From NCBI RefSeq assembly GCF_003627815.1, contig NZ_CP032698.1, positions 4,340,001 to 4,404,000 of the forward strand: DNA of 64,000 nucleotides, written 5' to 3'. The notes below the pieces were generated by a model, which searched no databases, had not been told where the DNA came from, and was given only the letters and a program-made list of their open reading frames with translations. The translations under genes and the position numbers were made by a program. Positions 23,502-61,870 of the stretch are shown here, piece by piece. Source of the DNA: Streptomyces hundungensis. GTDB lineage: Bacteria > Actinomycetota > Actinomycetes > Streptomycetales > Streptomycetaceae. How positions within the stretch are numbered: the first letter of the stretch is position 1; every line of letters begins with the position of its first letter.

Positions 23502-24035
23502 GTGGCCGAGCAGCTTTACGCCACCCTGAAGACCAATCAGGGCGACATCGAGATTCGGCTCCTGCCGAACCACGCACCCAAGACGGTCAAGAACTTCGTG
23601 GAACTCGCCAAGGGCGAGCGCGAGTGGACGAACCCGGCGACCGGCCAGAAGACCACGGACCCGCTGTACGACGGCACCGTCTTCCACCGCGTGATCAGCG
23701 GCTTCATGATCCAGGGCGGCGACCCGCTGGGCAACGGCACCGGCGGCCCGGGCTATGAGTTCGCCGACGAGTTCCACCCCGACCTGGCCTTCAACAAGCC
23801 GTACCTGCTGGCCATGGCGAACGCCGGCCCGGCCACCAACGGCTCGCAGTTCTTCATCACCGTGTCGCCCACCGCGTGGCTGACCGGCAAGCACACCATC
23901 TTCGGCGAGGTGTCCAACGACGCCGGCCGCAAGGTCGTGGACGCCATCGTGCACACCGAGACCAACCCGCGAACCGACCGCCCGGTCAGCGACGTCGTCA
24001 TCGAGTCGGTCGTCGTGGAGAGCCGCGAAGGCTGA
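23502..24035 (+). CDS. ppiA: Peptidyl-prolyl cis-trans isomerase (cyclophilin)
   Basis: Cytoplasmic cyclophilin that isomerises X-Pro bonds. Catalytic and substrate-binding signatures are present: FHRVISGFMIQGGDP (about residues 64-78), MANAGPATNGSQFFIT (about 106-121) and LTGKHTIFGEV (about 126-136). It has no signal peptide; 177 aa is normal. The position corresponds to mycobacterial ppiA near gyrA. The start is GTG 23502, and a hairpin follows the stop. Confidence 0.95.
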   Translation: MAEQLYATLKTNQGDIEIRLLPNHAPKTVKNFVELAKGEREWTNPATGQKTTDPLYDGTVFHRVISGFMIQGGDPLGNGTGGPGYEFADEFHPDLAFNKPYLLAMANAGPATNGSQFFITVSPTAWLTGKHTIFGEVSNDAGRKVVDAIVHTETNPRTDRPVSDVVIESVVVESREG

Positions 24036-46307: not shown

Positions 46308-47360
46308 TCACCGGTCGAAGTCGAGCTCCACCTCCCCGGTGGCGGGGTGGGACTGGCAGGCCAGGACGTAGCCAGCTTCGGTCTCCTCCGGTTCCAGCGC
46401 GAAGTTCCGCTCCATCCGGACCTCGCCCTTGACCAGGAACGCCCGGCACGTCCCGCACACCCCGCCCTTGCAGGCGTACGGCGCGTCCGCGCGGGCGCGC
46501 AGCACCGTTTCCAGCAGGGACTCGCCCTCGCGCACCGGCCAGTTGCCCGAGCGGCCGTCCAGGGTCGCGGTGAGCGTGGCGTGTGCCGGGGCGGCGGCGG
46601 TGGCGGTGGGAGCAGGGGCCGCGTCCACGTGGAAGATCTCCTGGTGGATGCGGTTGCGGTCGACGCCGAGCGCGCCGAGGGCCTGCTCGGCGCCTTGGAC
46701 CAGGCCGAAGGGACCGCACAGGAACCAGCCGTCGATGTCCGTCACCGGCAGCAGCGCGGGCAGCAGCTCGCCAAGGCGCTCGCGGTCGAGCCGGCCGGAG
46801 GGCAGCCCGGACTGCTGCTCCTCCCGGGACAACACGGTGACCAGCTGGAACCGTTCGGGATAGCGGTCCTTCAGGTCGGCCGTCTCTTCGAGGAACATCG
46901 TCGACGCGGCGCTGCGGTCGCTGCGTATCAGACAGAACCGGGCCTCGGGCTCGCGGGCGAGCAGGGTGGCCGCGATGGACAGGACCGGGGTGATGCCGCT
47001 GCCGCCGACGATCGCCGCGAAGTGTCCGGGGCGGGGGGCCAGCACGAAGCGGCCCATCGGTTCCATGACGTCGACCGTGTCGCCGACGGCCAGTTCCTTG
47101 AAGGCGTACGTGGAGAAGGCGCCGCCCTCGACGACGCGGATGCCGACGCGCAGCACCGGCTCGTGGGGCGCCTCGACGGCCGGGGCGCAGATCGAGTACG
47201 TACGGCGGATGTCCTCGCCCAGCACGGTGCGGCGCAGGGCGAGGTGCTGGCCGGGGAGGTGGCGGTAGGCCTCGCGGAGTTCGGGCGGGACGGCGAACGT
47301 GACGGCGACCGCGTCGTCCGTGAGCTGCTCGACCTCGCTGACCCGGAGCGGATGGAACAT
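46308..47360 (-). CDS. paaE: Phenylacetyl-CoA epoxidase reductase subunit PaaE
   Basis: Passes electrons from NADPH to the PaaABC oxygenase. It is a 350-aa FAD/ferredoxin reductase: RLSYSICA-like FAD site reads RRTYSICAPAVEAP, the NADP site is GGSGITPVLSIAATLL, and the C-terminal plant-type 2Fe-2S cluster is CKGGVCGTCRAFLVKGEV with a last Cys in LACQSHP. The ribosome binding site AAGGAG lies within the end of paaD. It is the last gene of paaABCDE. Confidence 0.95.
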   Translation of the reverse strand: MFHPLRVSEVEQLTDDAVAVTFAVPPELREAYRHLPGQHLALRRTVLGEDIRRTYSICAPAVEAPHEPVLRVGIRVVEGGAFSTYAFKELAVGDTVDVMEPMGRFVLAPRPGHFAAIVGGSGITPVLSIAATLLAREPEARFCLIRSDRSAASTMFLEETADLKDRYPERFQLVTVLSREEQQSGLPSGRLDRERLGELLPALLPVTDIDGWFLCGPFGLVQGAEQALGALGVDRNRIHQEIFHVDAAPAPTATAAAPAHATLTATLDGRSGNWPVREGESLLETVLRARADAPYACKGGVCGTCRAFLVKGEVRMERNFALEPEETEAGYVLACQSHPATGEVELDFDR

Positions 47361-47864
47361 CTACAACTCCTTGAAGTGGTCGAACGGTTCACGGCACGCC
47401 ACGCAGCGGCGCAGTGCCTTGCAAGCGGTAGAGGAGAAGCGGCTGAGCAGCTCGGTGTCGGTGGATCCGCAGTGCGGGCAGCGCACCGACAGGGTGAGCG
47501 CGACGGGTCCGTCAGCGGCGTGCGAGCGCGGCGGAGCTATGCCGAACTCGGCGAGTTTGCGGCGGCCTTCGGCGCTGATGTCGTCGGTGGACCAGGCCGG
47601 AGACAGCACCCGTACGACCGAGACGTGTTCCATGCCGTGGTCGTGGAGCACGCGCTCGATGTCCGACGACATGGCTTCGACGGCGGGGCAGCCGGTGTAG
47701 GTGGGGGTGAGCTCGATGCGTACCCGGCCGGGCCCTTCGACCCGTACGCCGCGCAGGACGCCGAGCTCTTCGAGGGTCAGTACGGGCAGTTCGGGGTCGG
47801 GGACGGCGCCGGCGAGGCGTCGCAGCTCGGTCTCCAGGGGGGTGGGGGCGGTGTCGGTCACCAT
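47361..47864 (-). CDS. paaD: Phenylacetyl-CoA epoxidase accessory protein PaaD
   Basis: A 167-aa DUF59/MIP18-type protein thought to help mature the metal or Fe-S centres of the epoxidase. The DUF59 part is LAGAVPDPELPVLTLEELGV...TPTYTGCPAVEAM, and the C-terminus has a zinc-finger-like CPHCGS...CVACREPFDHFKE. The ATG at 47864 overlaps the end of paaC; paaE starts right after the stop. Confidence 0.95.
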   Translation of the reverse strand: MVTDTAPTPLETELRRLAGAVPDPELPVLTLEELGVLRGVRVEGPGRVRIELTPTYTGCPAVEAMSSDIERVLHDHGMEHVSVVRVLSPAWSTDDISAEGRRKLAEFGIAPPRSHAADGPVALTLSVRCPHCGSTDTELLSRFSSTACKALRRCVACREPFDHFKEL

Positions 47865-48577
47865 GACGCCCCCGGGTGGCTGCGGTGCAGGTGCTGCATT
47901 TCGGCGAGCATCCGACCGAACGGTTCGGTGTGCAGGCCCTGGCGGCCGGCTCCCGCGGCCCAGGCGCCGGTTCGCGGGCCTTCGGGGACGGTCAGCGTGG
48001 CCCGGCCGAGGACCGAGGTCATCGATGCCGTCCACCGCGCGTCGAGAGCCGCCCAGTCGAGGTCGAGGCCGGGCACGGGCTGGAACATCTCGCCGGTGTA
48101 GCGCCACAGCGCCTCGCAGGCCTGCCGCATCCGCCGGTGGCTCTCCTCGGTGCCGTCGCCGAGCCGTAGGGTCCACTGCTCGGCGTGGTCGCGGTGGTAG
48201 TCGACCTCCTTGACCGCCTTGGCCGCGATGGCGCTGAACTCGCCATCCCCCTCGGCGAGTTCGCCGTACAGCAGGTGCTGGTACGTCGAGAAGTACAGCT
48301 GGCGGGCGATGGTGTGGGCGAAGTCGCCGTTGGGCTGCTCGACGAGCTGGAGGTTGCGGAAGGACCGCTCCTCGCGGAGGTAGGCGAGCTCGTCCTCGTC
48401 GCCGACCTCGGAGAGCAGCAGCCGGGCCTGGCCGAGCAGGTCGAGGGCGATGTTCGCGAGGGCGACCTCTTCTTCGAGGACGGGGGCGTGGCCCGCCCAC
48501 TCCCCCAGCCGGTGCGAAAGCACCAGGGCGTCGTCGCCGAGGGCGAGAGCGGCGTCCGCCGAGACGATGGCCGTCAC
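47858..48577 (-). CDS. paaC: Phenylacetyl-CoA epoxidase structural subunit PaaC
   Basis: A 239-aa ferritin-like partner of the catalytic PaaA, needed for complex assembly. Typical segments are DDALVLSHRLGEWAGHAPVLEEEVALANIALDLLGQAR and VKEVDYHRDHAEQW. GTG start overlaps the paaB stop (GTGA). Confidence 0.95.
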   Translation of the reverse strand: MTAIVSADAALALGDDALVLSHRLGEWAGHAPVLEEEVALANIALDLLGQARLLLSEVGDEDELAYLREERSFRNLQLVEQPNGDFAHTIARQLYFSTYQHLLYGELAEGDGEFSAIAAKAVKEVDYHRDHAEQWTLRLGDGTEESHRRMRQACEALWRYTGEMFQPVPGLDLDWAALDARWTASMTSVLGRATLTVPEGPRTGAWAAGAGRQGLHTEPFGRMLAEMQHLHRSHPGASW

Positions 48578-48861
48578 AGGTGCTTCACCCCTTCCGGGAT
48601 CTCGTAGAACGTGGGATGGCGATACGGCTTGTCGGCGGCCGGGTCGAAGAAGGAGTCCTTCTCGTCGGGCGACGACGCGCTGATCGCGCTGGACGGCACG
48701 ACCCAGATCGAAATGCCCTCGGACCTGCGGGTGTAGAGGTCCCGGGCGTTCCGCAGCGCCATCTCGGCGTCCGGCGCGTGCAGGCTTCCCGCGTGGGTGT
48801 GGGAGAGCCCGCGGCGCGAGCGCACGAACACCTCCCAGAGCGGCCAGTCGTGCGTGCTCAT
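48574..48861 (-). CDS. paaB: Phenylacetyl-CoA epoxidase subunit PaaB
   Basis: A 95-aa subunit of unknown exact role in the epoxidase complex. Signature [38 protein letters not shown] and C-terminal [11 protein letters not shown] are diagnostic. Overlaps paaA by 4 nt (ATGA). Confidence 0.95.
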
Positions 48862-49886
48862 GCGGTTGCCTCTCCGTTCGCGTGCTGCGACTGCGACTGC
48901 GACTGCGACTGTGACCGTGAGCGCTGTGTTTGGTGCTTCGTCGCGTAGGAGGCGGCCGCCTCCCGCACCCAGGCGCCCTCTTCGTGGGCCCGGCGCCGCT
49001 GGGTGATCCGCTGCTCGTTGCAGGGGCCGTTGCCCTTGAGGACCTCCCAGAACTCCGTCCAGTCGATCGGCCCGAAGTCGTGGTGGCCGCGCTCCTCGTT
49101 CCAGCGCAGCTCGGGGTCGGGCAGGGTGAGACCCAGGCCCTCGGCCTGGCCCACCGCTATGTCCACGAAGCGCTGGCGCAGCTCGTCGTTGGAGTGCCGC
49201 TTGATCTTCCAGGTCATCGACTGCGCGGAGTGCGCCGATTCGTCGTCGGGCGGGCCGAACATCATCAGGGACGGCCACCACCAGCGGTTCACCGCGTCCT
49301 GCGCCATGGCGTGCTGGTCCGGCGTCCCCTGGGACAGGGCGAGCAGCAGCTCGTAGCCCTGCCGCTGGTGGAAGGACTCCTCCTTGCAGATGCGCACCAT
49401 CGCCCGTGCGTACGGGCCGTAGGAGCAGCGGCACAGGGGGACCTGGTTGGTGATCGCCGCGCCGTCCACCAGCCAGCCGATCGCGCCGACGTCGGCCCAG
49501 GTCAGGGTGGGGTAGTTGAAGATCGACGAGTACTTCTGGCGGCCCGAGTGCAGCTTGTCCAGGAGCTCGTCGCGGCCGGTGCCGAGCGTTTCGGCCGCGC
49601 TGTAGAGGTAGAGGCCGTGGCCCGCTTCGTCCTGGACCTTGGCCATCAGGATCGCCTTGCGGCGCAGGGACGGGGCGCGGGTGATCCAGTTCGCCTCGGG
49701 CTGCATGCCGATGATCTCGGAATGGGCGTGCTGCGCCATCTGCCGGACCAGCGAGGAGCGGTACTCCTCCGGCATCCAGTCGCGTGGCTCGATCCGCTCG
49801 TCCGCTGCGACGGCCGCGTCGAACACCGCCTGGTACGACGCGTCCGTCCCTGCGGCTGCCGTGGCTGTCGCGGTCACTCCGGTCAT
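48858..49886 (-). CDS. paaA: Phenylacetyl-CoA epoxidase catalytic subunit PaaA
   Basis: Di-iron oxygenase that epoxidises the ring of phenylacetyl-CoA. Iron ligands are in [12 protein letters not shown] (ExxH) and [13 protein letters not shown] (ExxH), within a ferritin-like bundle of 342 aa. The ATG at 49886 has GGGGGCCGG upstream; an upstream ATG at 49955 would overlap the operator. The C-terminus ends in an unusual (SQ)5-like run encoded by a 6-bp microsatellite. First gene of paaABCDE. Confidence 0.94.
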
Positions 49887-49928
49887 TCCGGCCCCCTGCC
49901 GAGCTGCTGTGCGGCTGTCCACCAACCG

Positions 49929-49942
49929 ACCGATCGTTCGGT
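49929..49942. promoter_or_regulatory. PaaR-type operator upstream of paaA
   Basis: ACCGATCGTTCGGT, matching ACCGNNCGNNCGGT, the core I recall for Corynebacterium PaaR. An 18-bp stretch here is identical, on the opposite strand, to the site at 55330. It lies 43 bp before paaA and 80 bp before the divergent DUF5819 gene. Confidence 0.8.
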
Positions 49943-50021
49943 TCAATGACTTCAATGGTGAGTCGACGGCCCGTAGGGTGTCAACCCTGTGGATAACTCA
50001 GTGGGTGCCGATCGGGGCGGG

Positions 50022-51596
50022 ATGGATTCGCACAAGGACGAGGCCGGAGTCGGTGGCAAGGCTGTCGGTACGGGATCCGGGCAGGTCAGGGCCGCTGCGG
50101 CCGGGTCCGGGGGCCCTGCGGAGAGCGGCCGTGGGCATTCGGCTGGACGGGTTGTGCCCCGGCGGACCGACCCCGCGTCCGGCCCTGCCGACGGCGCTGT
50201 TTTCGATTCGCCGGTGATCTCCGACCGCGATTCCGCCACCGCCCCGGCCACCGATCCGGATGCGGATCCCGCCACGGGAGCGCCAGCCGCGGTGGGCGGG
50301 GACGGGCCCGGCGGGTCTGCTGGCGGCGGGGTCTCGGCCGCAGCGTCCTCCGAGGGCCCGGCGTCGCCTGCCGATCCCTCGATGGACCGAGTCACGACTG
50401 CCGATCCCTCCGAGGGTCCGGTGTCGGCTGCCCACCCCTCGGCGGACCGAGCCACGGCGGCCGATCCCGCCGTGGACGCGGCGCCGGCTGTCGACCCGTC
50501 CGCAGACGCGGTGTCGACTGGCGACCACCCTTCCGCGGGCCGAGCCACGGCTGGCGACCACGCCGAGGGCCGCGCCTCCGCTGAGGGGCGTGCCCCAGCT
50601 GAAGGTCGCGCCTCCGCCGAGGACCGCGTCCCCGCCGAGCGTCCCGTCCCCGCTGATGACTCGTCCGCCGAATCCGCTGACCGTGCCAGGGCCCCCTGGC
50701 CGCTGGTGCGCCCGGACCGAGGCCCCACCCCGGGCCCGCGCGCCGACGGCGCCCCGGCCTCCACCCCGGCCCCCTCTACCGGCCCCGCCGCCAGTGACCC
50801 CGCCGAATCTGACCCCGCCACCCCCGGTGGCCCTGCCACCCCCAGCGACCCCGCCACCCCCGGTCACCAGGCCACCCCCGGCCCCACTCCCTCCCAGCCC
50901 CCCGGCCCTACAGGGCCCGGCGCGGGGCTTTCGGCGCGGGGGATCGCGGGGCTGCCCCGCCGGTTTCAGGTGGTGGCCGCGGTCGCGCTCGCGGTGATCG
51001 CCGTGGTCGGCTGCGCCCAGATAGGGATGGTGTTCCTGCACGTCGCACCGCCCAACACGATCAGCAAGCAGCACGGCAAGAACGTGGACGACTGGATCTA
51101 CCCCGAGTTCGAGCAGAACTGGAAGCTCTTCGCGCCCAATCCGCTCCAGCAGAACATCGACGTCCAGGCGCGTGCCGAGATCAAGATGCCCGACGGCAGC
51201 ACCAGGACCACCGCCTGGATCGACTTCTCGGCGCAGGACGGCGCCGCGATCCAGCACAATCCGCTGCCGAGCCACACCCAGCAGAACGAACTGCGGCGCG
51301 CCTGGGACTTCTTCTTGGGTTCGCATGGCGACGACAACAAGCCCAACGGTCTGCGCGGCGAACTCTCCGAGCAGTATCTGCGCCGCATCGTGATGCTCCG
51401 CCTCGGCACGCACCGCGACGGCGGAACGGTCGACCGGATCCAGGTCAGGTCGAGGACCACGGCCGTCAAAAACCCGTCGTGGAGCGACGAGAAGAGCGAC
51501 ACGCGGCCGTTCTACCGAGAAGTGCCGTGGTGGACGGTGACCCCCGCCGACCTGCCCCCGGGCGCCGGTGACGCACGCACGGAGGCGAAGCGGTGA
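50022..51596 (+). CDS. DUF5819 family membrane protein (SdpA-like)
   Basis: A ~524-aa protein. The first ~300 residues are low-complexity Pro/Ala/Ser/Asp repeats (for example EGRASAEGRAPAEGRASAED, and DPATPG units). One membrane helix (VVAAVALAVIAVVGCAQIGMVFL) is followed by an outer DUF5819 domain containing QNWKLFAPNPLQQNIDVQA, which resembles SdpA of the Bacillus sporulation-delaying-protein system. I prefer ATG 50022; GTG 49989, inside a TGTGGATAA box, is in frame. The stop overlaps the HTTM gene. No toxin precursor like SdpC is seen nearby. Confidence 0.82.
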   Translation: MDSHKDEAGVGGKAVGTGSGQVRAAAAGSGGPAESGRGHSAGRVVPRRTDPASGPADGAVFDSPVISDRDSATAPATDPDADPATGAPAAVGGDGPGGSAGGGVSAAASSEGPASPADPSMDRVTTADPSEGPVSAAHPSADRATAADPAVDAAPAVDPSADAVSTGDHPSAGRATAGDHAEGRASAEGRAPAEGRASAEDRVPAERPVPADDSSAESADRARAPWPLVRPDRGPTPGPRADGAPASTPAPSTGPAASDPAESDPATPGGPATPSDPATPGHQATPGPTPSQPPGPTGPGAGLSARGIAGLPRRFQVVAAVALAVIAVVGCAQIGMVFLHVAPPNTISKQHGKNVDDWIYPEFEQNWKLFAPNPLQQNIDVQARAEIKMPDGSTRTTAWIDFSAQDGAAIQHNPLPSHTQQNELRRAWDFFLGSHGDDNKPNGLRGELSEQYLRRIVMLRLGTHRDGGTVDRIQVRSRTTAVKNPSWSDEKSDTRPFYREVPWWTVTPADLPPGAGDARTEAKR

Positions 51597-52882
51597 GCAC
51601 GTACGACCACACCGGCCCTACCGCCGACCACCCTGTCCCCACCACCCGCGCGGCCGACGCCCCGATCACCCCCGCCCCCCAGGGCTCGCCCCCCGGGGCC
51701 CTTGACGCGGGGGAGACGCGGGCCGCGCGGGCCGTGCGGATGGTTTCGGCCGCCGCTCTCGGCCCGTACCAGAGCGCCGTCGTCCGCATCGGCTTCGCCG
51801 CGACCTGGCTGTTCTTCCTGCTGCGTGAGCTGCCGCACCGCCGTGAGCTGTACGGACCGGACGGCCCCTGGAGTTGGGACCTCGGCAACCGTCTGGTGAG
51901 CGGCAACCACGCCTTCACCGCGCTGCTGTGGAGCGACAGCACCCTCTGGTTCGAGTTCGTGTACGCGCTGGCCATCGTGTCCAGCGTGCTTCTGCTGCTC
52001 GGCTGGCGTACCCGCACCACCTCCGTCGTGTTCATGATCGGCGTGCTGTCGTTGCAGAATCGCTCCGTCTTCATGGGGGACGGCGGTGACAACGTCATCC
52101 ACCTCATGGCGATCTATCTGGTCTTCACGCGGTGCGCCCAGGTCTGGTCGCTGGACGCGCGGCGCGCCGCGCGCGGGGCGGTCCGCGACCGGGTCGGGCC
52201 GGTGTTGTGGGCGGTGTGCGGGCTGGGTCTTGCCGCCGCGACCTGGCGTACGTCCGGGTCGGGCGTTTTCGGTGGCGGCGAGTGGTGGCTGTGGGTCGTG
52301 TTCTGGGGCGCGTGGGCGGTTCAGGGCCTGTGGTGGGCGGTGGGCCGGTTCGCCGCCGCCGACGCGCGGGCGCTGCTCGATGTGATCGCCAACCTCGTCC
52401 ACAACGTGGCCATGGTCGTGATCATGGCGGAGGTCTGCCTGGTCTACGCGACCGCCGGCTGGTACAAGATCCAGGGCAGCCGCTGGCAGGACGGCACCGC
52501 GCTGTTCTACCCGCTGAAGCTCGACTACTTCTCGCCGTGGCCCGAACTCTCCTCCCTGCTGGGCACGAGCGGGGTGATCGTGATGCTGCTCACCTATGGA
52601 ACGGTCATGGTGCAGGTGGCGTTCCCGTTCACGCTGTTCAATCGGCGGGTCAAGAACGTGCTGCTGGTGGCGATGATGCTGGAGCACGCCGGCATCGCGG
52701 TCCTGCTGGGTCTGCCGTTCTTCTCACTGGCGATGATCGCCGCGGACGCCGTGTTCCTGCCGACGTCCTTCCTGCGCCGGGTGGGCGCGCTCGCGGGCCG
52801 GCTGCGGCCGGGCGCACGCCTTCCCGAGCAGCGCGGACAGCGGGCGGACGAGCCCGAACGGCCACGTACGCTCGTGGGGTGA
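51593..52882 (+). CDS. HTTM domain membrane protein (SdpB-like)
   Basis: A 429-aa polytopic protein with about eight membrane helices and an HTTM domain, the fold shared by vitamin-K gamma-carboxylase and SdpB. Useful landmarks: LRELPHRRELYGPDGPWSWD, LSLQNRSVFMGDGGDNVIHL, and TAGWYKIQGSRWQDGTALFYPL. Coupled to the DUF5819 gene by GTGA overlap and to the methyltransferase gene by another. An SdpA/SdpB-type pair for maturation of a secreted peptide is inference. Confidence 0.88.
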   Translation: MSTYDHTGPTADHPVPTTRAADAPITPAPQGSPPGALDAGETRAARAVRMVSAAALGPYQSAVVRIGFAATWLFFLLRELPHRRELYGPDGPWSWDLGNRLVSGNHAFTALLWSDSTLWFEFVYALAIVSSVLLLLGWRTRTTSVVFMIGVLSLQNRSVFMGDGGDNVIHLMAIYLVFTRCAQVWSLDARRAARGAVRDRVGPVLWAVCGLGLAAATWRTSGSGVFGGGEWWLWVVFWGAWAVQGLWWAVGRFAAADARALLDVIANLVHNVAMVVIMAEVCLVYATAGWYKIQGSRWQDGTALFYPLKLDYFSPWPELSSLLGTSGVIVMLLTYGTVMVQVAFPFTLFNRRVKNVLLVAMMLEHAGIAVLLGLPFFSLAMIAADAVFLPTSFLRRVGALAGRLRPGARLPEQRGQRADEPERPRTLVG

Positions 52883-53577
52883 GCAGCACCGAACAGCCGG
52901 CCCCGGCCGCCACGACCCCGGCCGCCACGACCCCGCCCGGCGAGCCCCTCCAGTACGACGAGGGCTTCGGGCCCGAGGTCGGGGTGGGGCCGCACGCGCT
53001 GCCCTGGCCCGAGGGCGAGCGCTACGACCCGGAGTTGCTCGCGCACGGCGACCGGCGCAACGTCGTGGACGCCTACCGGTACTGGACGCGCGAGGCGATC
53101 GTCGCCGACCTCGACACCCGCAGGCACGACTTCCACGTGGCCGTCGAGAACTGGGGCCACGACTTCAACATCGGGTCCGTGGTGCGCACAGCCAACGCCT
53201 TCCTGGCCAAGGAGGTGCACATCGTCGGGCGGCGCCGCTGGAACCGGCGCGGGGCGATGGTCACCGACCGGTACCAGCATGTGCGCCACCACCCCGACAC
53301 CGAGTCGCTGACCGCGTGGGCGCTGGAGCAGGACGTGCCGATCATCGGCATCGACAATCTGCCCGGCGCGGTGCCGCTGGAGCGGACCGAGCTGCCGCGC
53401 CGCTGTGTGCTGCTCTTCGGGCAGGAGGGGCCCGGCCTCACCGAGGAAGCCCGGAAGCACGCCCATATGGTGTGCTCCATCGCCCAGTTCGGCTCCACGC
53501 GCTCCATCAACGCGGGGGCCGCCGCGGCCATCGCGATGCACGCCTGGGTGCAGCGGCACGCCGTCGTCCCCGACTGA
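52879..53577 (+). CDS. SpoU/TrmH family RNA 2'-O-methyltransferase
   Basis: A 232-aa SPOUT methyltransferase with the three family motifs: NIGSVVRTANAFLAKEVHIVG (1), LLFGQEGPGLTEEARK (2) and SIAQFGSTRSINAGAAAAIAMH (3). The N-terminus has a PAATTPAATTP duplication. Target RNA is not predictable. The GTG overlaps the HTTM gene. Confidence 0.92.
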   Translation: MSSTEQPAPAATTPAATTPPGEPLQYDEGFGPEVGVGPHALPWPEGERYDPELLAHGDRRNVVDAYRYWTREAIVADLDTRRHDFHVAVENWGHDFNIGSVVRTANAFLAKEVHIVGRRRWNRRGAMVTDRYQHVRHHPDTESLTAWALEQDVPIIGIDNLPGAVPLERTELPRRCVLLFGQEGPGLTEEARKHAHMVCSIAQFGSTRSINAGAAAAIAMHAWVQRHAVVPD

Positions 53578-53603
53578 CGCGCCCCGCTCCGTGCGGGCCG
53601 GGC

Positions 53604-55268
53604 TCAGGCCTGCCTGCGGACCTCCACCACGCGGAACCGGTTGGACACGAACGCCCCGTCGCACAGGGCCGCGTTGGCCGCCGGGTTGCCGCCCGAGCCG
53701 TGGAAGTCGGAGAACGCGGCCGTCTGGTTGACGTACACCCCGCCCGTCAGGTTCAGCGACAGCTGGGCCGACTCGTCCAGGCAGACGTCCTCCACCGCGC
53801 GCTCCACCTCGGGGGAGGTGGTGTACGCGCCGACCGTCATCGCGCCCTTGTCGCGGACCGTGCGGCGCAGCAGCTCCACCGCGTCCGCCGTGGAGTCGAC
53901 GGCGACGGCGAAGGAGACCGGGCCGAAGCACTCCGACAGGTAGACGGATTCGGCGTCCGGCTTCGCGCCGTCCAGCTTGACGATCACGGGGGTGCGCACC
54001 ACCGCGTCCGGGAACTCGGGGTTGGTCACCTCCCGTGTGGGCAGGGCGACTTCGCCGAGGCCGGAGGCTGCTTCCAGGCGGGCCTTCACATCGGGGTTGA
54101 CCAGCGCGCCGAGCAGCGCGTTGGCGCGGGCGTCGTCGCCGAGGAGGCCGCTCACCGCGCCCGCGAGGTCGCCGACCACGTCGTCGAAGGTCTTGTGGCC
54201 CGCGTCGGTGGTGATGCCGTCGCGGGGGATCAGCAGGTTCTGCGGGGTGGTGCACATCTGGCCGCTGTACAGGGACAGCGAGAAGGACAGGTTGGCGAGC
54301 ATGCCCTTGTAGTTGTCGGTGGAGTCGATGACCACCGTGTTGACGCCGGCCTTCTCGGTGTAGACCTGCGCCTGGCGGGCGTTGGCCTCCAGCCAGTCGC
54401 CGAAGGAGGAGGAACCCGTATAGTCGATGATCTTGATTTCGGGGCGGACCGCGAGGGTCTTGGCGATGCCCTCGCCGGGCCGCTCGGCCGCGAGCGCCAC
54501 CAGGTTGGGGTCGAAGCCCGCTTCGGCGAGGACTTCGCGGGCGACCTTCACCGTCATGGCCAGCGGCAGCACCGCGCGCGGGTGCGGCTTGACCAGGACC
54601 GGGTTTCCGGTGGCCAGCGAGGCGAACAGGCCGGGGTAGCCGTTCCACGTGGGGAAGGTGTTGCAGCCGATCAGCAGGGCGATGCCGCGCCCGGCCGGCG
54701 TGAACGTCTTGGTGAGCTCCAGGGGGTCGCGCTTGCCCTGGGGCTTGGACCAGGCCGCGCTGCCCGCGGGGGTGCGGGTCTGCTCCTGGTAGGCGTACGC
54801 GACGGCCTCGAGGCCCCGGTCCTGGGCGTGCGGGCCGCCCGCCTGGAAGGCCATCATGAAGGCCTGGCCGCTGGTGTGCATGACCGCGTGCGCGAACTCG
54901 TGGGTGCGGGCGCCGATGCGCGCCAGGATCTCGACGCACACCAGGGCGCGCGTCTCGGGTCCGGCGGCCCGCCAGTCGGCCATGCCGGCCCGCATCGCGG
55001 GCAGCAGCACGTCGAGGTCGGGGTGGGGGTACTGGATGCCCAACTCGACGCCGTAGGGCGACACTTCGGCGCCCGTCCAGTCGTCGGTGCCCGGCTGGTC
55101 GAGGTCGAAGCGGCGGTTCAGGAGCGCGTCGAAGGCGGCCTTGCCGTCCTCGGCGCCCGTCTCCCCGTAGGCCTTGGGGTGCTCCGGGTGCGGCGACCAG
55201 TACGCACGGGTGCGGATCGCTTCCAGGGCCCCGTCCAGGGTGGGCCTGTGCTTCTCGGTCAGCTGCAT
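53604..55268 (-). CDS. paaN: Phenylacetic acid degradation protein PaaN (ring-cleaved product aldehyde dehydrogenase)
   Basis: A 554-aa aldehyde dehydrogenase-fold protein of the PaaN family, processing the oxepin-CoA ring-opening product. Catalytic-region motifs: IGCNTFPTWNGYPGLFASLATGNPVLVKPHP, SSSFGDWL and the nucleophile Cys in LYSGQMCTTPQNLL. The ATG at 55268 has GAGGAG upstream. It shares its divergent promoter with paaH, where a PaaR-type operator lies. Confidence 0.94.
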   Translation of the reverse strand: MQLTEKHRPTLDGALEAIRTRAYWSPHPEHPKAYGETGAEDGKAAFDALLNRRFDLDQPGTDDWTGAEVSPYGVELGIQYPHPDLDVLLPAMRAGMADWRAAGPETRALVCVEILARIGARTHEFAHAVMHTSGQAFMMAFQAGGPHAQDRGLEAVAYAYQEQTRTPAGSAAWSKPQGKRDPLELTKTFTPAGRGIALLIGCNTFPTWNGYPGLFASLATGNPVLVKPHPRAVLPLAMTVKVAREVLAEAGFDPNLVALAAERPGEGIAKTLAVRPEIKIIDYTGSSSFGDWLEANARQAQVYTEKAGVNTVVIDSTDNYKGMLANLSFSLSLYSGQMCTTPQNLLIPRDGITTDAGHKTFDDVVGDLAGAVSGLLGDDARANALLGALVNPDVKARLEAASGLGEVALPTREVTNPEFPDAVVRTPVIVKLDGAKPDAESVYLSECFGPVSFAVAVDSTADAVELLRRTVRDKGAMTVGAYTTSPEVERAVEDVCLDESAQLSLNLTGGVYVNQTAAFSDFHGSGGNPAANAALCDGAFVSNRFRVVEVRRQA

Positions 55269-55329
55269 GGCGTGCAACTCCTCGTCGAGTCTTCGAGCTG
55301 GGCAGGGAGAGCCGGACACCGTTAGAGTA

Positions 55330-55343
55330 ACCGAACGATCGGT
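55330..55343. promoter_or_regulatory. PaaR-type operator between paaN and paaH
   Basis: ACCGAACGATCGGT, a perfect match to ACCGNNCGNNCGGT, 62 bp before paaN and 125 bp before paaH. A perfect DnaA box TGTGGACAA follows at 55369-55377. Confidence 0.85.
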
Positions 55344-55467
55344 CGGGACAAGAGGGCCCGGGGAAACCTGTGGACAACTACCGGCCAAGCCCGCCGGGGC
55401 CCTGTCCTCGGGCCCCGCGAGGGGGCCCGCCGGGCCCCTGGGCGAGCCGTAGGGGAGGATCGCGTTC

Positions 55468-57012
55468 ATGACCAAAACCGCCAGCGCCTCAGCGATCGCG
55501 CCGAGCCGTACCGTCGCCGTCGTCGGCACCGGGACCATGGGCCAGGGCATCGCCCAGGTCGCCCTCGTCGCCGGACACCGCGTACGGCTCTACGACGCCG
55601 TGCCGGACCGGGCGCGCGAGGCCGCCGACGCCCTCGCCGGACGCCTGGACCGGCTGGTCGACAAGGGCCGCATGGACGCCGCCGACCGCGACGAGGCGCT
55701 GGCCCGCCTCCACCCGGCCGCCGAACTGGCCGAGCTCGCCGACGCGGCGCTCGTCGTCGAGGCCGTCCTGGAACAACTCCCCGTCAAACAGGAGCTGTTC
55801 GGAGCTCTGGAGGACGTGGTGGGCGAGGAGTGCCTGCTGGCCACCAACACCTCCTCGCTCTCCGTCACGGCGATCGCGGGCGCGCTCAGGCACCCCGGCC
55901 GCTTCGTGGGCCTGCACTTCTTCAACCCGGCGCCGCTGCTGCCCCTGGTCGAGGTCGTCAGCGGCTTCGCCACCGACGCGGAGACCGCGACCCGGGCGTA
56001 CGAGACGGCGAAGGCCTGGGGCAAGACGCCGGTGCGCTGCACCGACACCCCCGGCTTCATCGTCAACCGCATCGCCCGGCCCTTCTACGCCGAGGCCTTC
56101 GCGATCCACGAGGAGCGCGGCGCGGACCCGGCCACCATCGACGCGGTGCTGCGCGAGAGCGGCGGGTTCAAGATGGGCCCCTTCGAGCTCACCGACCTCA
56201 TCGGGCAGGACGTCAACGAGGCGGTGACCCGCTCCGTCTGGGAGTCCTTCTTCCAGAGCCCCAAGTTCACGCCGTCCCTGGCCCAGCGCCGCCTCGTCGA
56301 ATCGGGCCTGCACGGGCGCAAGAGCGGGCGCGGCTGGTACGCCTACGGGACCCCCGGCGCGCCCTCACAAGAGGCCGAGCGTCCCGCGCCGCACACCGCG
56401 CCGCCCGCGAAGGCGCCGGACGCCGTCACCGTCGTCGGTGACCTGGGGCCGGCCCGCGAACTGGTCGCGATGATGACCGAGGCCGGCATCGACGTGACCA
56501 GCGTCAACGAGGGCGGCCCCTACATCGAGCTTCCGGGGGATGGACAGCTCGTCCCGGCCGACGGCAAGACGTCCGTGGAGTTCGCGGACGTCGTCTACTT
56601 CGACCTCGCCCTCGACTACCGGGGCGCCACCCGTATCGCGCTCTCCGCGAGCGAGGACACCTCCGAGCGTGCCGTCACCGAGGCGGTGGGCCTGTTCCAG
56701 AAGCTCGGCAAGGAGGTCAGCGTCATCGGTGACGTGCCCGGCATGATCGTCGCCCGTACCGTGGCGATGCTCGTCGACCTCGCCGCCGATGCCGTCGCCA
56801 AGGGCGTCGCCACCGCCGAGGACATCGACACCGCGATGCGCCTGGGCGTCAACTACCCGCTGGGGCCGGTCGAATGGAACCGGCGGCTCGGCCAGGACTG
56901 GGCGTACGACCTGCTCTCCGCGCTGCACGAGCGCTGCCCCACCGGCCGCTACGCCCCCTCGCTCGCGCTCTACCGCCAGGCGTACGCGGGCGAGGAGGAG
57001 ACGGGCTCATGA
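55468..57012 (+). CDS. paaH: 3-hydroxyacyl-CoA dehydrogenase PaaH
   Basis: NAD-dependent dehydrogenase of the lower phenylacetate pathway, acting on 3-hydroxyadipyl-CoA. N-terminal Rossmann motif VVGTGTMGQGIAQVAL is at about residues 19-34. Two C-terminal 3HCDH domains follow, with PGFIVNRIARPFYAEA and PGMIVARTVAMLVDLA. The length of 514 aa is typical of PaaH in actinobacteria. The stop overlaps paaR (ATGA). Confidence 0.94.
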   Translation: MTKTASASAIAPSRTVAVVGTGTMGQGIAQVALVAGHRVRLYDAVPDRAREAADALAGRLDRLVDKGRMDAADRDEALARLHPAAELAELADAALVVEAVLEQLPVKQELFGALEDVVGEECLLATNTSSLSVTAIAGALRHPGRFVGLHFFNPAPLLPLVEVVSGFATDAETATRAYETAKAWGKTPVRCTDTPGFIVNRIARPFYAEAFAIHEERGADPATIDAVLRESGGFKMGPFELTDLIGQDVNEAVTRSVWESFFQSPKFTPSLAQRRLVESGLHGRKSGRGWYAYGTPGAPSQEAERPAPHTAPPAKAPDAVTVVGDLGPARELVAMMTEAGIDVTSVNEGGPYIELPGDGQLVPADGKTSVEFADVVYFDLALDYRGATRIALSASEDTSERAVTEAVGLFQKLGKEVSVIGDVPGMIVARTVAMLVDLAADAVAKGVATAEDIDTAMRLGVNYPLGPVEWNRRLGQDWAYDLLSALHERCPTGRYAPSLALYRQAYAGEEETGS

Positions 57013-57602
57013 CCACCGCCAAACGCGACACCTACACGCCCGAGACGCTGCTCACGGTCGCGGTGCGGGTCTTCAACGACCGGGGCTACGACGGCACGTC
57101 CATGGAGCACCTGTCCAAGGCGGCCGGGATCTCCAAGTCGTCGATCTACCACCATGTGGCCGGCAAGGAGGAGCTGCTCCGCCGGGCGGTGAGCCGCGCC
57201 CTGGACGGCCTCTTCGGTGTGCTGGACGAGCCGGGCGCCGTGCGCGGCCGGTCCATCGAGCGGGTCGAGTACGTCACGCGGCGTACCGTGGAAGTCCTGA
57301 TGGCCGAACTCCCCTACGTCACGCTGCTGTTGCGCGTGCGGGGCAACACCAAGACGGAACGCTGGGCGATGGAACGCCGGCGCGAGTTCGACCAGCGCGT
57401 CGCCGACCTGCTCAAGGCGGCCGTCGCGGACGGTGACCTCCGCGCCGACCTGGACATTCGCCTGGCGACCCGGCTGCTGTTCGGCATGGTCAACTCGCTG
57501 GTGGAGTGGTACCGGCCGCAGCGCGAGGGAGAGGCGGACGGGGCGCAGGTGGCGGACACCGTGGTGCGGATGGCGTTCGACGGGCTGCGGACCGGGCACT
57601 GA
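57009..57602 (+). CDS. paaR: TetR family repressor, probable PaaR
   Basis: A 197-aa TetR regulator. The HTH reads YDGTSMEHLSKAAGISKSSIYHHVAGKEELLRRAV (about residues 26-61), with a ligand-binding C-terminal half. It is translationally coupled to paaH and lies among three promoters with the ACCGNNCGNNCGGT palindrome. It is therefore the natural candidate to bind phenylacetyl-CoA and repress paa and bkd genes. That assignment is inference from context. Confidence 0.88.
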   Translation: MTTAKRDTYTPETLLTVAVRVFNDRGYDGTSMEHLSKAAGISKSSIYHHVAGKEELLRRAVSRALDGLFGVLDEPGAVRGRSIERVEYVTRRTVEVLMAELPYVTLLLRVRGNTKTERWAMERRREFDQRVADLLKAAVADGDLRADLDIRLATRLLFGMVNSLVEWYRPQREGEADGAQVADTVVRMAFDGLRTGH

Positions 57603-57646
57603 GTTCCGGCCACCGGCCCCTGTGCGAGACCCGGGCCGACGGTCCC

Positions 57647-58135
57647 CTACGCGGGGTCCAGATCGGTCTCCTCGAACACCAGCAGGGTGCGCGTCGACAG
57701 CACCTCCGGGATGGACTGGATGCGGGTCAGAACCAGCTCGCGCAGCGCCCTGTTGTCGGGGGTGTGCACCAGGAGCAGCACGTCGAAGTCGCCGCTCACC
57801 AGGGCGATGTGGGCGGCGCCGGGCAGCTTCTGGAGTTCCTCGCGGACCGTGCGCCACGAGTTCTGCACGATCTTCAGCGTGATGTACGCGGCGGCGCCCT
57901 GGCCCGCCCGCTCGTGGTCCACGCGCGCGGTGAAGCCGCGGATCACGTTGTCCTCGACGAGCCGGTTGATGCGTGCGTAGGCGTTGGCGCGCGAGACGTG
58001 CACCCGTTCGGCCACGGAGCGTATCGAGGCCCTGCCGTCGGTTTGCAGGATGCGCAGGATGTCGTGGTCGATCTGGTCCAGCGGGCGCGGCGGCACCGGC
58101 CGGTTCTCGCCGGTGGCCATTTGTTCAGCTGCCAT
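57647..58135 (-). CDS. bkdR: Lrp/AsnC family regulator, probable BkdR
   Basis: A 162-aa Lrp-type regulator with an N-terminal HTH (LDQIDHDILRILQTDGRASIRSVAERVHVSRANAYARINRLVEDN) and a C-terminal RAM ligand domain (GAAHIALVSGDFDVLLLVHTPD). Divergent from bkdABC, as in other Streptomyces bkd loci, where it usually senses branched-chain amino acids. The ATG at 58135 has GGGGGAC upstream. Confidence 0.9.
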   Translation of the reverse strand: MAAEQMATGENRPVPPRPLDQIDHDILRILQTDGRASIRSVAERVHVSRANAYARINRLVEDNVIRGFTARVDHERAGQGAAAYITLKIVQNSWRTVREELQKLPGAAHIALVSGDFDVLLLVHTPDNRALRELVLTRIQSIPEVLSTRTLLVFEETDLDPA

Positions 58136-58236
58136 GTCCCCCCGCCTTCCTGTTGTGGACGACCTGTTCCCATCCCAGGCTGTGGAGAACCGTTTGTCCA
58201 CAGGCTGGAGGCGCCTGTAGCCAAAATGCGTCCACG

Positions 58237-58250
58237 ACCGAACAATCGGT
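58237..58250. promoter_or_regulatory. Near-perfect PaaR-type operator between bkdR and bkdA
   Basis: ACCGAACAATCGGT matches ACCGNNCGNNCGGT except one base (CG to CA). A perfect DnaA box TTGTCCACA lies at 58194-58202, and TGTGGACGA-like boxes nearby. Confidence 0.7.
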
Positions 58251-58317
58251 AGGTGAGGGGCGTCACAGTCACGCGTCCCGTTCTGGATGTCCGCTCCTGA
58301 CACGGAGGTGCATTGGC

Positions 58318-59442
58318 ATGACGGTCCAAGAGCTCCCCGGGGCCGCCGCATACCGGCCGACCCCTCCGCCCGCCTGGAGGCCCCGCACCGACCCCGCGCC
58401 GCTCCTGCCGGACCCCGAGCCGTACCGGGTCCTCGGCACGGGCGCGGAGCTCGACCGCGCGCTGATGCTGAAGCTGTACGCCGAGCTGGTGCGCGGACGC
58501 CGCTTCAACGCCCAGGCGACCGCCCTCACCAAGCAGGGCCGCCTCGCCGTGTACCCCTCCTCCACCGGTCAGGAAGCCTGCGAGGTGGCCGCGGCGCTCG
58601 CCCTTGAGGAGCGCGACTGGCTGTTCCCCAGCTACCGCGACACCCTCGCCGCCGTCGCGCGCGGACTGGACCCCGTCGAGGCCCTGACGCTGCTGCGCGG
58701 CGACTGGCACACCGGCTACGACCCGCGCCGCCACCGCATCGCCCCGCTGTGCACCCCGCTCGCCACCCAGCTCCCGCACGCGGTGGGCCTGGCCCACGCG
58801 GCCCGCCTCAAGGGCGACGACGTGGTGGCGCTCGCCCTGGTGGGCGACGGCGGCACCAGCGAGGGCGACTTCCACGAGGCGCTGAACTTCGCGGCCGTCT
58901 GGCGGGCCCCGGTCGTCTTCCTGGTCCAGAACAACGGCTTCGCGATCTCCGTGCCGCTCGCCAAGCAGACCGCCGCGCCCTCCCTCGCCCACAAGGCCGT
59001 CGGTTACGGCATGCCCGGCCGCCTGGTGGACGGCAATGACGCGCCGGCCGTGCACCAGGTGCTCGGCGAGGCCGTCGCCCGCGCCCGGCGCGGTGGCGGA
59101 CCCACCCTGATCGAGGCCGTCACCTATCGCATGGAGGCGCACACCAACGCCGACGACGCGACCCGCTACCGGGGCTCCGCCGAAGTCGACGCCTGGCGCG
59201 ACCACGACCCGATCCGCCTTCTGGAGGACGAGCTGACCGCCCGCGGGCTCCTCGACGAGGACGGAATACGCGCCGCCGCGGAGGCCGCCGAGACCATGGC
59301 CGCCGCCCTGCGCGAGCAGATGAACGCCGAGCCCTCCCTCACCCCCATGGACCTCTTCGCCGAGGTCTACGCCGAACAGAGCGGTCAACTGCGCGAGCAG
59401 GCCGCCCAGTTGCGCGCCGAGCTGGAAGCCGAGGCCCGGTGA
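58318..59442 (+). CDS. bkdA: Branched-chain 2-oxo acid dehydrogenase E1 alpha subunit
   Basis: Thiamine-diphosphate-dependent E1 alpha of a 2-oxo acid dehydrogenase, oxidising branched-chain keto acids to acyl-CoA precursors for fatty acids and polyketides. The ThDP-Mg motif GDGGTSEGDFHEALNFAAVWRAPVVFLVQNN is at about 180-210; the phosphorylation-loop-like YRMEAHTNADD follows. The 374-aa product starts at ATG 58318 with GGAGGTG upstream. The enzyme could act on pyruvate instead; branched-chain preference is from locus context. Confidence 0.92.
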   Translation: MTVQELPGAAAYRPTPPPAWRPRTDPAPLLPDPEPYRVLGTGAELDRALMLKLYAELVRGRRFNAQATALTKQGRLAVYPSSTGQEACEVAAALALEERDWLFPSYRDTLAAVARGLDPVEALTLLRGDWHTGYDPRRHRIAPLCTPLATQLPHAVGLAHAARLKGDDVVALALVGDGGTSEGDFHEALNFAAVWRAPVVFLVQNNGFAISVPLAKQTAAPSLAHKAVGYGMPGRLVDGNDAPAVHQVLGEAVARARRGGGPTLIEAVTYRMEAHTNADDATRYRGSAEVDAWRDHDPIRLLEDELTARGLLDEDGIRAAAEAAETMAAALREQMNAEPSLTPMDLFAEVYAEQSGQLREQAAQLRAELEAEAR

Positions 59443-60473
59443 TGACCACCGCCACCGACAACACCACCGCCCGGCGAGCCGACAAGAAGCCCGCCACCAT
59501 GGCGCAGGCCCTCCAGCGCGCCATGCGCGACGCGATGGCCGAGGACCCGACCGTCCACGTCCTTGGAGAGGACGTCGGCACCCTGGGCGGCGTCTTCCGG
59601 GTCACCGACGGGCTCGCCAAGGAGTTCGGCGAGGACCGCTGCACCGACACCCCGCTCGCCGAGGCCGGCATCCTCGGCACGGCCGTCGGCATGGCGATGT
59701 ACGGGCTGCGTCCGGTCGTCGAGATGCAGTTCGACGCCTTCGCGTACCCCGCGTTCGAGCAGCTCATCAGCCATGTCTCCAAGATGCGCAACCGCACCCG
59801 CGGGGCCATGGCGATGCCCATCGTGGTGCGCGTGCCCTACGGCGGCGGCATCGGTGGCGTCGAGCACCACAGCGACTCCAGCGAGGCCTACTACATGGCC
59901 ACGCCCGGCCTGAAGGTCGTCACGCCCGCCACCGTGGAGGACGCGTACGGCCTGCTCAGGGAGGCCATCGCCTGCGACGACCCGGTCGTCTTCCTGGAAC
60001 CCAAGCGCCTGTACTGGTCGAAGTCCGACTGGTCGCCCGAGGCCCCGGCGCCCGTGGAGCCCATCGGGAAGGCGGTCGTGCGGCGCGCCGGACGCAGCGC
60101 CACCCTCATCACCTACGGGCCGTCGGTGCCGGTGTGTCTGGAGGCGGCCGAGGCGGCCCGCGAGGAGGGCTGGGACCTCGAAGTCGTCGACCTGCGCTCG
60201 CTGGTGCCGTTCGACGACGAGACGGTGTGCGCATCGGTGCGCCGCACCGGGCGGGCCGTCGTCGTGCACGAGTCGTCCGGCTTCGGCGGGCCCGGCGGCG
60301 AGATCGCTGCGCGCGTCACCGAGCGTTGCTTCCACCATCTGGAGGCGCCCGTGCTGCGGGTGGCCGGCTTCGACATCCCCTATCCGCCGCCGATGCTGGA
60401 GAAGCACCATCTGCCCGGCGTGGACCGGGTCCTGGACGCGGTGGCCCGGTTGCAGTGGGAGGCGGGGCACTGA
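59442..60473 (+). CDS. bkdB: Branched-chain 2-oxo acid dehydrogenase E1 beta subunit
   Basis: E1 beta, 343 aa, with LGEDVGTLGGVFRVTDGLAKEFGEDRCTDTPLAEAG at about 45-80, MQFDAFAYPAFEQLI and RVPYGGGIGGVEHHSDSSEAYY. The ATG overlaps the bkdA stop (TGATG) and its own stop overlaps bkdC. Forms the alpha2-beta2 E1 tetramer. Confidence 0.95.
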   Translation: MTTATDNTTARRADKKPATMAQALQRAMRDAMAEDPTVHVLGEDVGTLGGVFRVTDGLAKEFGEDRCTDTPLAEAGILGTAVGMAMYGLRPVVEMQFDAFAYPAFEQLISHVSKMRNRTRGAMAMPIVVRVPYGGGIGGVEHHSDSSEAYYMATPGLKVVTPATVEDAYGLLREAIACDDPVVFLEPKRLYWSKSDWSPEAPAPVEPIGKAVVRRAGRSATLITYGPSVPVCLEAAEAAREEGWDLEVVDLRSLVPFDDETVCASVRRTGRAVVVHESSGFGGPGGEIAARVTERCFHHLEAPVLRVAGFDIPYPPPMLEKHHLPGVDRVLDAVARLQWEAGH

Positions 60474-61870
60474 TGCCGAAGGTGCTGGAGTTCAAGCTGC
60501 CCGACCTCGGTGAGGGTCTCACCGAGGCGGAGATCGTGCGCTGGCTCGTCGCGGTCGGCGACGTGGTGGCCGTGGACCAGCCGGTCGTCGAGGTCGAGAC
60601 GGCCAAGGCGATGGTCGAGGTGCCCTGCCCCTACGGCGGTGTCGTCACCGCCCGCTTCGGCGAAGAGGGCACCGAACTGCCCGTGGGTGCGCCGCTGTTG
60701 ACCGTGGCCGTCGGCGCGCCGCAGGAGCGGGAGGGCGCCGGGGTCTCGAAGGACGCCGGGTCCTCCGGGGACACCGGGTCATCCAGGGGTGCTGGGTCCT
60801 CCAAGGACGCCGGGTCCGCCGAGGACGCCGCCGCCTCCGAGCATTCGGGCAATGTCCTGGTGGGCTACGGGACGGGCACGGCCACCACCCGCCGCCGCGC
60901 CCGCGTGCGGCCCGCCGCCCCCGCGCCGACCGCGTCCCCCGCCACGGTCGCGGTGGCCGCCGCACCCGCCACGGCGACGGGGCCCGTGCCCGTCATCTCT
61001 CCGCTCGTGCGCAGGCTGGCCCGCGAACACGGCCTCGATCTGCGGGAGTTGCGGGGCACCGGCCCCGAGGGGCTCATCCTGCGCGTCGACGTCGAGTCGG
61101 CCGTGCGGGCGCCCGCCGAGGCCCCGACACCCGCCGCACGCGTCGCGCCGACACCCGCCGCAGGCACCAGTGGCGCACGCACCGGGGAGCGGATCGCGCT
61201 CAAGGGCATCCGGGGCGCGGTCGCCGACAAGCTCAGCCGCAGCCGTACCGAAATTCCCGACGCCACCTGCTGGGTGGACGCGGACGCCACGGAGCTGATG
61301 GCGGCCCGCGCCGCCATGAACGCCGTGGGCGGCCCCAAGGTGTCCGTCCTCGCCCTGCTCGCCCGGATCTGCGCGGCGGCCCTCGCCCGCTTCCCCGAGC
61401 TGAACGCGACGGTCGACATGGCGGCCCGCGAGATCGTGCGGCTGCCCGAGGTGCACCTGGGTTTCGCCGCGCAGACCGAGCGCGGCCTGGTCGTTCCCGT
61501 TGTCCGCGACGCCCACGGCCGCAACGTCGACTCGCTCGGCGCCGAACTCGCCCGGCTCACCGAGGCGGCCCGCACGGGCACCCTGACCCCGGCCGAACTG
61601 ACCGGCGGCACCTTCACCCTCAACAACTACGGGGTGTTCGGCGTCGACGGCTCCACGCCGATCATCAACCACCCCGAAGCGGCGATGCTGGGCGTGGGCC
61701 GCATCATCCCCAAGCCCTGGGTGTACGAGGGCGAGCTCGCCGTCCGCCTGGTGGTGCAGCTCTCCCTCACCTTCGACCACCGGGTGTGCGACGGCGGCAC
61801 CGCGGGGGGCTTCCTGCGCTACGTCGCGGACTGCGTGGAACACCCGGCGGTCCTGCTGCGCACCCTGTGA
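60473..61870 (+). CDS. bkdC: 2-oxo acid dehydrogenase E2, dihydrolipoamide acyltransferase
   Basis: 465-aa E2 core. The lipoyl domain has the lysine in EVETAKAMVEV (about residue 43), then a linker with hexapeptide repeats SKDAGS/SGDTGS/SRGAGS/SKDAGS, a subunit-binding domain (VISPLVRRLAREHGLDLREL), and the catalytic acyltransferase with HRVCDG near the C-terminus (about 436-441). Start ATG 60473 overlaps bkdB. Confidence 0.95.
   Translation: MPKVLEFKLPDLGEGLTEAEIVRWLVAVGDVVAVDQPVVEVETAKAMVEVPCPYGGVVTARFGEEGTELPVGAPLLTVAVGAPQEREGAGVSKDAGSSGDTGSSRGAGSSKDAGSAEDAAASEHSGNVLVGYGTGTATTRRRARVRPAAPAPTASPATVAVAAAPATATGPVPVISPLVRRLAREHGLDLRELRGTGPEGLILRVDVESAVRAPAEAPTPAARVAPTPAAGTSGARTGERIALKGIRGAVADKLSRSRTEIPDATCWVDADATELMAARAAMNAVGGPKVSVLALLARICAAALARFPELNATVDMAAREIVRLPEVHLGFAAQTERGLVVPVVRDAHGRNVDSLGAELARLTEAARTGTLTPAELTGGTFTLNNYGVFGVDGSTPIINHPEAAMLGVGRIIPKPWVYEGELAVRLVVQLSLTFDHRVCDGGTAGGFLRYVADCVEHPAVLLRTL

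Follow-up and report, generated by a model that had tools for sequence, protein, structure and literature searches.

Background

PaaR proteins of Burkholderia cenocepacia, Thermus thermophilus and Corynebacterium glutamicum are TetR-family repressors of the genes for phenylacetic acid (PAA) catabolism (PMC9493321). In the cited passages of that source, the validated B. cenocepacia operators are ACCGACCGGTCGGTT, the targets named are PAA genes only (paaA, paaH and paaZ), and the repressor is released by 'compound II', which we take as phenylacetyl-CoA, the name used in the title of the Thermus paper cited there. Here we describe a locus of Streptomyces hundungensis in which a paaR gene stands between PAA genes and bkdABC, an operon read as encoding a branched-chain keto acid dehydrogenase, and in which, in contrast to the targets named in those passages, a PaaR-type palindrome lies before bkd as well. 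The locus belongs to a stretch of 64,000 nucleotides (the window; C1:4340001-4404000 of the 8,393,044-bp chromosome, NZ_CP032698.1). We hypothesize from the sequence that PaaR (57009-57602) binds one operator class at paaABCDE, paaN/paaH-paaR, bkdR/bkdABC and paaK, and that it most likely represses bkdABC and is released by phenylacetyl-CoA; we put the probability of this reading at about 0.82.

The nearest described relative is PaaR of Streptomyces pristinaespiralis (SSDG_03033; Zhao et al. 2015, cited in PMC10933834 and PMC7089894), a TetR-family protein said in the citing passages to lower paa expression. Its putative site, AACGA-N4-TCGGT (PMC10933834), shares its 14-base layout with ACCGA-N4-TCGGT of the present locus, from which one fixed base sets it apart, the comparison being one of listed site and description; neither bkd nor paaK is mentioned as a target in the cited passages. 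On the branched-chain side, PccD of Saccharopolyspora erythraea is likewise of the TetR family and is said to control the branched-chain keto acid dehydrogenase operon directly (PMC8176718), but its site differs from the operator described here (table in PMC10933834) and the passages mention no link to PAA. BkdR (SCO3832) of Streptomyces is presented in PMC8176718 as a regulator of the branched-chain dehydrogenase complex, as we propose for the Lrp gene of the present locus, which belongs to the Lrp/AsnC family by Pfam; the stem 'phenylac' is absent from that paper.

In the literature searched we found no paper that names bkd as a PaaR target, although Zhao et al. 2015 lay outside the search and may say more. 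The main text of a 2026 pathway survey (PMC13186573) contains neither 'bkd' nor 'branched-chain', and that of the S. coelicolor iModulon paper gave no match to the terms searched. That PaaR occurs in Streptomyces and affects paa is already known; bkd as its target appears to be new.

A shared palindrome at paa and bkd promoters

From left to right, the locus comprises the leftward paaABCDE, two rightward genes (for a DUF5819 protein and for an SdpB-like protein), the leftward paaN, the rightward pair paaH-paaR, the leftward bkdR and the rightward bkdABC. Three predicted PaaR-type operators occupy its promoter regions: ACCGAACGATCGGT on the minus strand at 49929..49942, upstream of paaABCDE; ACCGAACGATCGGT on the plus strand at 55330..55343, between the divergent paaN and paaH-paaR; and ACCGAACAATCGGT on the plus strand at 58237..58250, between the divergent bkdR and bkdABC. 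The first two match ACCGNNCGNNCGGT exactly and the third has one mismatch. A preliminary description of this DNA had listed these palindromes and placed a TetR gene between the second and the third, and a pattern search confirmed them, with the TetR gene at 57009-57602 on the plus strand. An 18-bp stretch, AACCGAACGATCGGTCGG, is common to the paaA and paaN/paaH sites on opposite strands, as that description had also noticed. Between site and start codon lie 42 bases for paaA (start at 49886), 61 for paaN (55268), 124 for paaH (55468), 101 for bkdR (58135) and 67 for bkdA (58318), in agreement with the 43-125 bp given earlier, which were counted start to start.

An additional perfect match to ACCGNNCGNNCGGT occurs in the window at 23973. 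Enrichment of the pattern within the window was dropped as evidence: there are 13 matches with at most one mismatch against 10.2 expected, and 26 of 100 shuffles reach 13. The evidence must therefore rest on position and conservation.

Genome-wide, the pattern ACCGNNCRNYCGGT proved too wide, giving 92 strand matches, many of them GC-rich, against 30 for the reversed control, whereas the narrower ACCGANYRNTCGGT occurs at eight places against two for its control. Among the eight is a fourth PaaR-type site, ACCGATCATTCGGT, at G000:C1:7416917-7416930 (L234:6917, L252:2829; G000 is this genome), 3 Mb from paaR. It precedes by 75 bp the match of the one gene that exceeds the PaaK cut-off (720 bits). 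A search of 61 Streptomyces genomes for paaK gave matches in 54, and in each of the 30 loci read, that of this genome included, a site lies 48-245 bp upstream of the paaK match, in three forms (27, 2 and 1 loci).

Conservation of the sites in Streptomyces and its family

For Streptomyces, we read 80 named loci; ranked by the similarity of their PaaR, these are the best 80 of 410 and hence close relatives. The paaN/paaH site is exact in all 80, the bkd site is letter-identical in 79/79 loci that hold bkd (L049 does not), and the paaA site is exact in 75/75 that hold paaA (five do not). In 12 further Streptomyces loci (L182-L193), most of them picked because their genomes had only two matches to ACCGAACRATCGGT, the stretch read does not include paaA and holds both the paaN site and the bkd site. 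Across an order-wide sample of 147 genomes, ACCGAACRATCGGT was matched in 134, namely in 132/132 members of the genus, each with at least two matches, and in 2 of 15 others. One of these two, G002 from another family of the order, has its match at bkd with an identical string, the locus having been picked because of the string; in the other, G011, the match lies away from any PAA or bkd gene found.

The family sample held 121 Streptomycetaceae genomes from 17 genera. A bkdA orthologue was defined as a best match of at least about 59% identity, and adjacency of string and gene was judged by comparing coordinates (from the DNA itself for G432 and G435). Among the matches listed, 115 of the 121 genomes have a bkdA orthologue, 114 a PaaR match and 113 the exact bkd string, which stands directly upstream of bkdA in 111 and elsewhere in G374 and G399. 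Both a PaaR match (one of them a fragment) and a bkdA orthologue were found in 113 genomes among the matches listed, and 111 of these have the bkd site. The two exceptions, G389 and G405, belong to a single genus, g111, whose members read here (L195 = G389, L196/L197 = G405, L198 = G399) carry bkd genes without the operator, with PaaR present, fragmentary or not found, respectively. No orthologous bkdA was found among the matches listed in six of the 121 genomes (G371, which has PaaR, and G374, G384, G387, G397 and G401).

The opposite combination, a bkdA orthologue without a PaaR match, occurs in only two genomes, G379 and G399, and the site is present at bkd in neither. In G379, where a genome search gave no match for either PaaR or PaaA, bkdR-bkdABC is retained and the alignment shows an eroded operator, with the left half kept and the right half changed; blocks to the left of it (CGTTCGTCCA and TATGGCC) are still recognisable. 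PaaA is present without a PaaR match in G399 and G401.

At least four forms of the paaN site occur in the loci outside the genus, their centres being CG, CA or TG. We had considered the bkd site a weakened operator, given its one mismatch, and dropped this when CA and TG were seen at the centre of paaN and paaK sites; since all three centres occur also at PAA promoters, the mismatch lies within the range of the class. Judged by sequence in the loci read, none of the other sites appears as constrained as the bkd operator.

PaaR and its motif outside the order

PaaR matches were found in 53 genomes outside the order, and 46 of these loci were read. The stretch read contains paaA in 31 and paaN in 5 more, so that 36/46 PaaR genes stand with PAA genes. 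The motif, with at most one mismatch, lies within 300 bp upstream of paaA, paaN or paaR in 35/46 loci against 0.7 expected from the motif density elsewhere in the same loci; the counts are 11 against 0.1 with no mismatch and 36 against 6.5 with two. The TetR protein has the traits of PaaR, namely an N-terminal helix-turn-helix, a gene beside PAA genes across lineages, and an ACCG...CGGT palindrome at PAA promoters. Genes for bkd were in the stretch in only one of the 46 loci (L169). Because the motif stands at PAA promoters outside the order, where bkd accompanies it in only that one locus, and because G002 has the string at bkd, the link of PaaR to PAA genes looks the older one, and that to bkd appears to be a feature of Streptomycetales. 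In the single exception, from another order (G349, L169:11773-18346), paaZ and an Lrp gene stand back to back, bkdABC-like genes follow the latter, and a PaaR-like palindrome occurs a few bases before the Lrp start; this is perhaps an independent pairing of the two pathways.

A model for control of bkdABC

Upstream of bkdA, the conserved blocks TTGTCC-N18-TAGCCA (58194..58223, plus strand) are read, on the strength of their conservation, as the bkdA promoter, and 13 bases separate them from the operator. The operator would then lie just downstream of the promoter and near the transcript start, which is a usual place for a TetR repressor, and because of this position we propose that PaaR most likely represses bkdABC. 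In the full model, PaaR would recognise four promoter regions through one operator class, about ACCGANYRNTCGGT, and the ligand that releases it would most likely be phenylacetyl-CoA, to which PaaR proteins of other species respond. An inverted repeat, AGGCTGTGGA...TCCACAGGCT, lies over the presumed first promoter block (window 58177-58206); it is conserved in Streptomyces and several near genera and is perfect in L210. This repeat may be the site of BkdR and, together with the PaaR operator near the transcript start, it would place bkdABC under two regulators.

That PaaR also controls bkd was the central suggestion of the preliminary description, and it gains support from the conservation of the site in the Streptomyces loci (79/79) and the family (111/121), the motif in 35/46 loci outside the order, the unlinked paaK site and the erosion in G379. 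A genome-wide palindrome search and a look for absence of the bkdA site in close relatives, both named there as checks, returned the eight places that include paaK and a site that is conserved, so that the second check did not refute the suggestion.

Published expression data from S. rimosus HP126 (PMC10612213, Table 2, with figures that we interpret as log2 changes) bear on the model. In the part of the source consulted, the genes for E1 alpha, E1 beta and E2 (SRIMR7_19995, 20000 and 20005) change by 5.0, 4.6 and 4.7, paaE, paaD and paaC (19935-19945) by 4.1, 3.5 and 3.3, phenylacetate-CoA ligase (35410) by 3.1, and valine dehydrogenase by -1.7. From the neighbouring locus tags, the S. rimosus genes seem to be arranged as in the present locus. 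These data show what would largely be the predicted regulon moving together, in a strain that carries many mutations.

Branched starter units for the synthesis of fatty acids and polyketides come from the bkd complex; acetyl-CoA and succinyl-CoA are products of PAA catabolism. If the model is true, one switch would serve two pathways that feed the building blocks of fat and antibiotics; deleting or inducing a single repressor would raise both supplies together, which would give strain engineers a single switch and would fit the joint rise of bkd and paa in the oxytetracycline hyperproducer. Among the loci read, the operator that varies least would then be one outside the pathway after which the regulator is named, a case that can be put to the test.

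Coordination of aromatic and branched-chain carbon entry, as first suggested, is one of at least two readings of the purpose of such control. A second, which we regard as tentative and on balance unlikely, is that the PaaR-controlled keto acid dehydrogenase might also act as a phenylpyruvate dehydrogenase, converting phenylalanine-derived phenylpyruvate to phenylacetyl-CoA; PaaR would then control both the enzyme that produces its ligand and a path by which phenylalanine enters ring cleavage without PaaK. By analogy, PglB/C are proposed in the cited passages of PMC7089894 to make phenylacetyl-CoA from phenylpyruvate in pristinamycin biosynthesis. The family models matched by the bkd proteins fail to separate branched-chain keto acids, pyruvate and phenylpyruvate as substrate.

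Alternative explanations and points against the model

A TetR-family paralogue, rather than PaaR, might bind all the sites or the bkd site, which we consider improbable. A TetR gene whose product is 30% identical to PaaR lies about 2 kb from a CA-centred match (G000:C1:6745306-6745319; L242:4306) that precedes an APH-domain/acyl-CoA dehydrogenase gene pair by 38 bp; this match may be the operator of that paralogue, and related regulators may therefore read similar palindromes. PaaR, however, is the TetR regulator of the conserved locus, and it is PaaR orthologues that accompany the motif at PAA promoters or paaR outside the order.

The presence of the bkd palindrome in the bkdR-bkdA intergenic region of all 79 Streptomyces loci would be expected if it were an operator of the Lrp/AsnC protein BkdR that resembles the PAA sites by chance. 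We judge this very unlikely, as the same class of site occurs at paaA, paaN/paaH and the unlinked paaK, the site is eroded in G379 although bkdR is retained, and the different inverted repeat at 58177-58206 is a better candidate for BkdR.

Conservation of the flanks was followed in 29 intergenic regions outside the genus, which were picked for holding the string, so that its presence there is by choice; pairwise identity is 47% in the 70 bp to its left and 41% in the 30 bp to its right, and the three bases that follow it (AGG) are nearly fixed, at 98%. It is hardly credible that the bkd site is a functionless passenger of a locus inherited as a block, as the close neighbourhood of paaR and bkd in most family loci read might suggest, for the flanks have turned over to 41-47% identity where the exact string is kept, and the string is kept in 111/115 genomes with a bkdA orthologue among the matches listed, including those of L202-L204, where paaR and bkdR are about 3-7 kb apart.

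Several observations weigh against PaaR control of bkdABC. Four of the eight genome-wide matches to ACCGANYRNTCGGT lie away from the paa, bkd and paaK promoters, two of them inside likely genes (open reading frames passing a GC3 filter), one at the APH-domain/acyl-CoA dehydrogenase pair and one unassigned. Loss of the operator together with PaaR rests on G379, an assembly 93% complete in 200 contigs, and on G399, whose genus is generally without the site. In that genus, g111, G389 keeps PaaR beside bkd, and its paaA and paaN have sites whereas its bkd has none; G405 has a PaaR fragment and no bkd site. Thirteen of the 15 order genomes outside Streptomyces gave no match to ACCGAACRATCGGT in a string search that did not assess their PaaR or bkd content. 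A promoter search found no E. coli-type promoter at 58194..58223. We stress also that HP126 is heavily mutated and that PaaR is absent from the text of PMC10612213, and that in the second column of its table (HP126 delta-v3) the consulted figures are -2.9 to -2.7 for bkd and 0 for paaC; those for paaE, paaD and the ligase are -1.4, -1.0 and -1.3.

Gene identities and other observations

The paaA gene (48858..49886, minus strand), for a phenylacetyl-CoA epoxidase subunit, scores 522 bits with TIGR02156, over the NCBIfam cut-off. It is followed by paaB, paaC, paaD and paaE (46308..48861, minus strand), recognised by the Pfam domains PaaB, PaaD zinc ribbon and Fer2/FAD/NAD and, for PaaC, by TIGR02158 over its cut-off. 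The product of paaN (53604..55268, minus strand) is likewise over the cut-off of TIGR02288 with 963 bits. The paaH-like gene (55468..57012, plus strand) encodes a 3-hydroxyacyl-CoA dehydrogenase over the subfamily cut-off of NF006124 (629.7 bits) and below that of the PaaH equivalog TIGR02279 (590.5 vs 669.4 bits). The start of paaR overlaps the paaH stop (ATGA); its product has the Pfam domains TetR_N and TetR_C_24 and matches the solved structure of S. coelicolor SCO3833 (PDB 2iai, chain 2iai_A, E 6.8e-89).

The bkdR product (57647..58135, minus strand) has the Pfam domains HTH_24 and AsnC_trans_reg. The bkdABC genes (58318..61870, plus strand) encode, by NCBIfam and Pfam, E1 alpha, E1 beta and E2 of a 2-oxoacid dehydrogenase, which we read as branched-chain; BkdA is marginally above the PDH_E1_alph_x cut-off (419.3 vs 411.35) and BkdB is under its NCBIfam cut-offs. 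The name bkd comes from the gene order beside the Lrp gene and from the known S. coelicolor locus, with no model specific to branched-chain keto acid dehydrogenases behind it; the Lrp gene presumably holds the position that BkdR (SCO3832) has in the S. coelicolor gene order. This genome also carries another bkd-like operon (G000:C1:4414314, 42% identity); in the stretch read there (L243), no match to ACCGNNYRNNCGGT occurs.

Exact strings also occur away from these promoters. A bkd-type string stands 107 bp before a gene for an MFS metabolite/H+ symporter, near a distant paa cluster (L168:2407), and stray bkd-type or paa-type strings away from PAA and bkd genes found were seen at L205:5429, L206:5994, L199:9914, L200:9603 and L135:9982, the L200 copy inside a likely gene and the L199 copy between SIS-domain and GntR genes.

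Seven distant paaA loci (L244-L250) carry a divergent paaA-E set, with 73-75% identity in PaaA, away from paaR, and some have PaaR-type sites. A site lies within about 300 bp of paaA in 4/7, L247 and L248 have a site near thiolase, paaK or paaI genes, and one of the seven is without a site. This suggests that the divergent set replaced the native one in several Streptomyces. In the window, the DUF5819 protein and the SdpB-like protein (below the SdpB cut-off) encoded at 49989-52882, between paaA and paaN, are probably an unrelated membrane pair.

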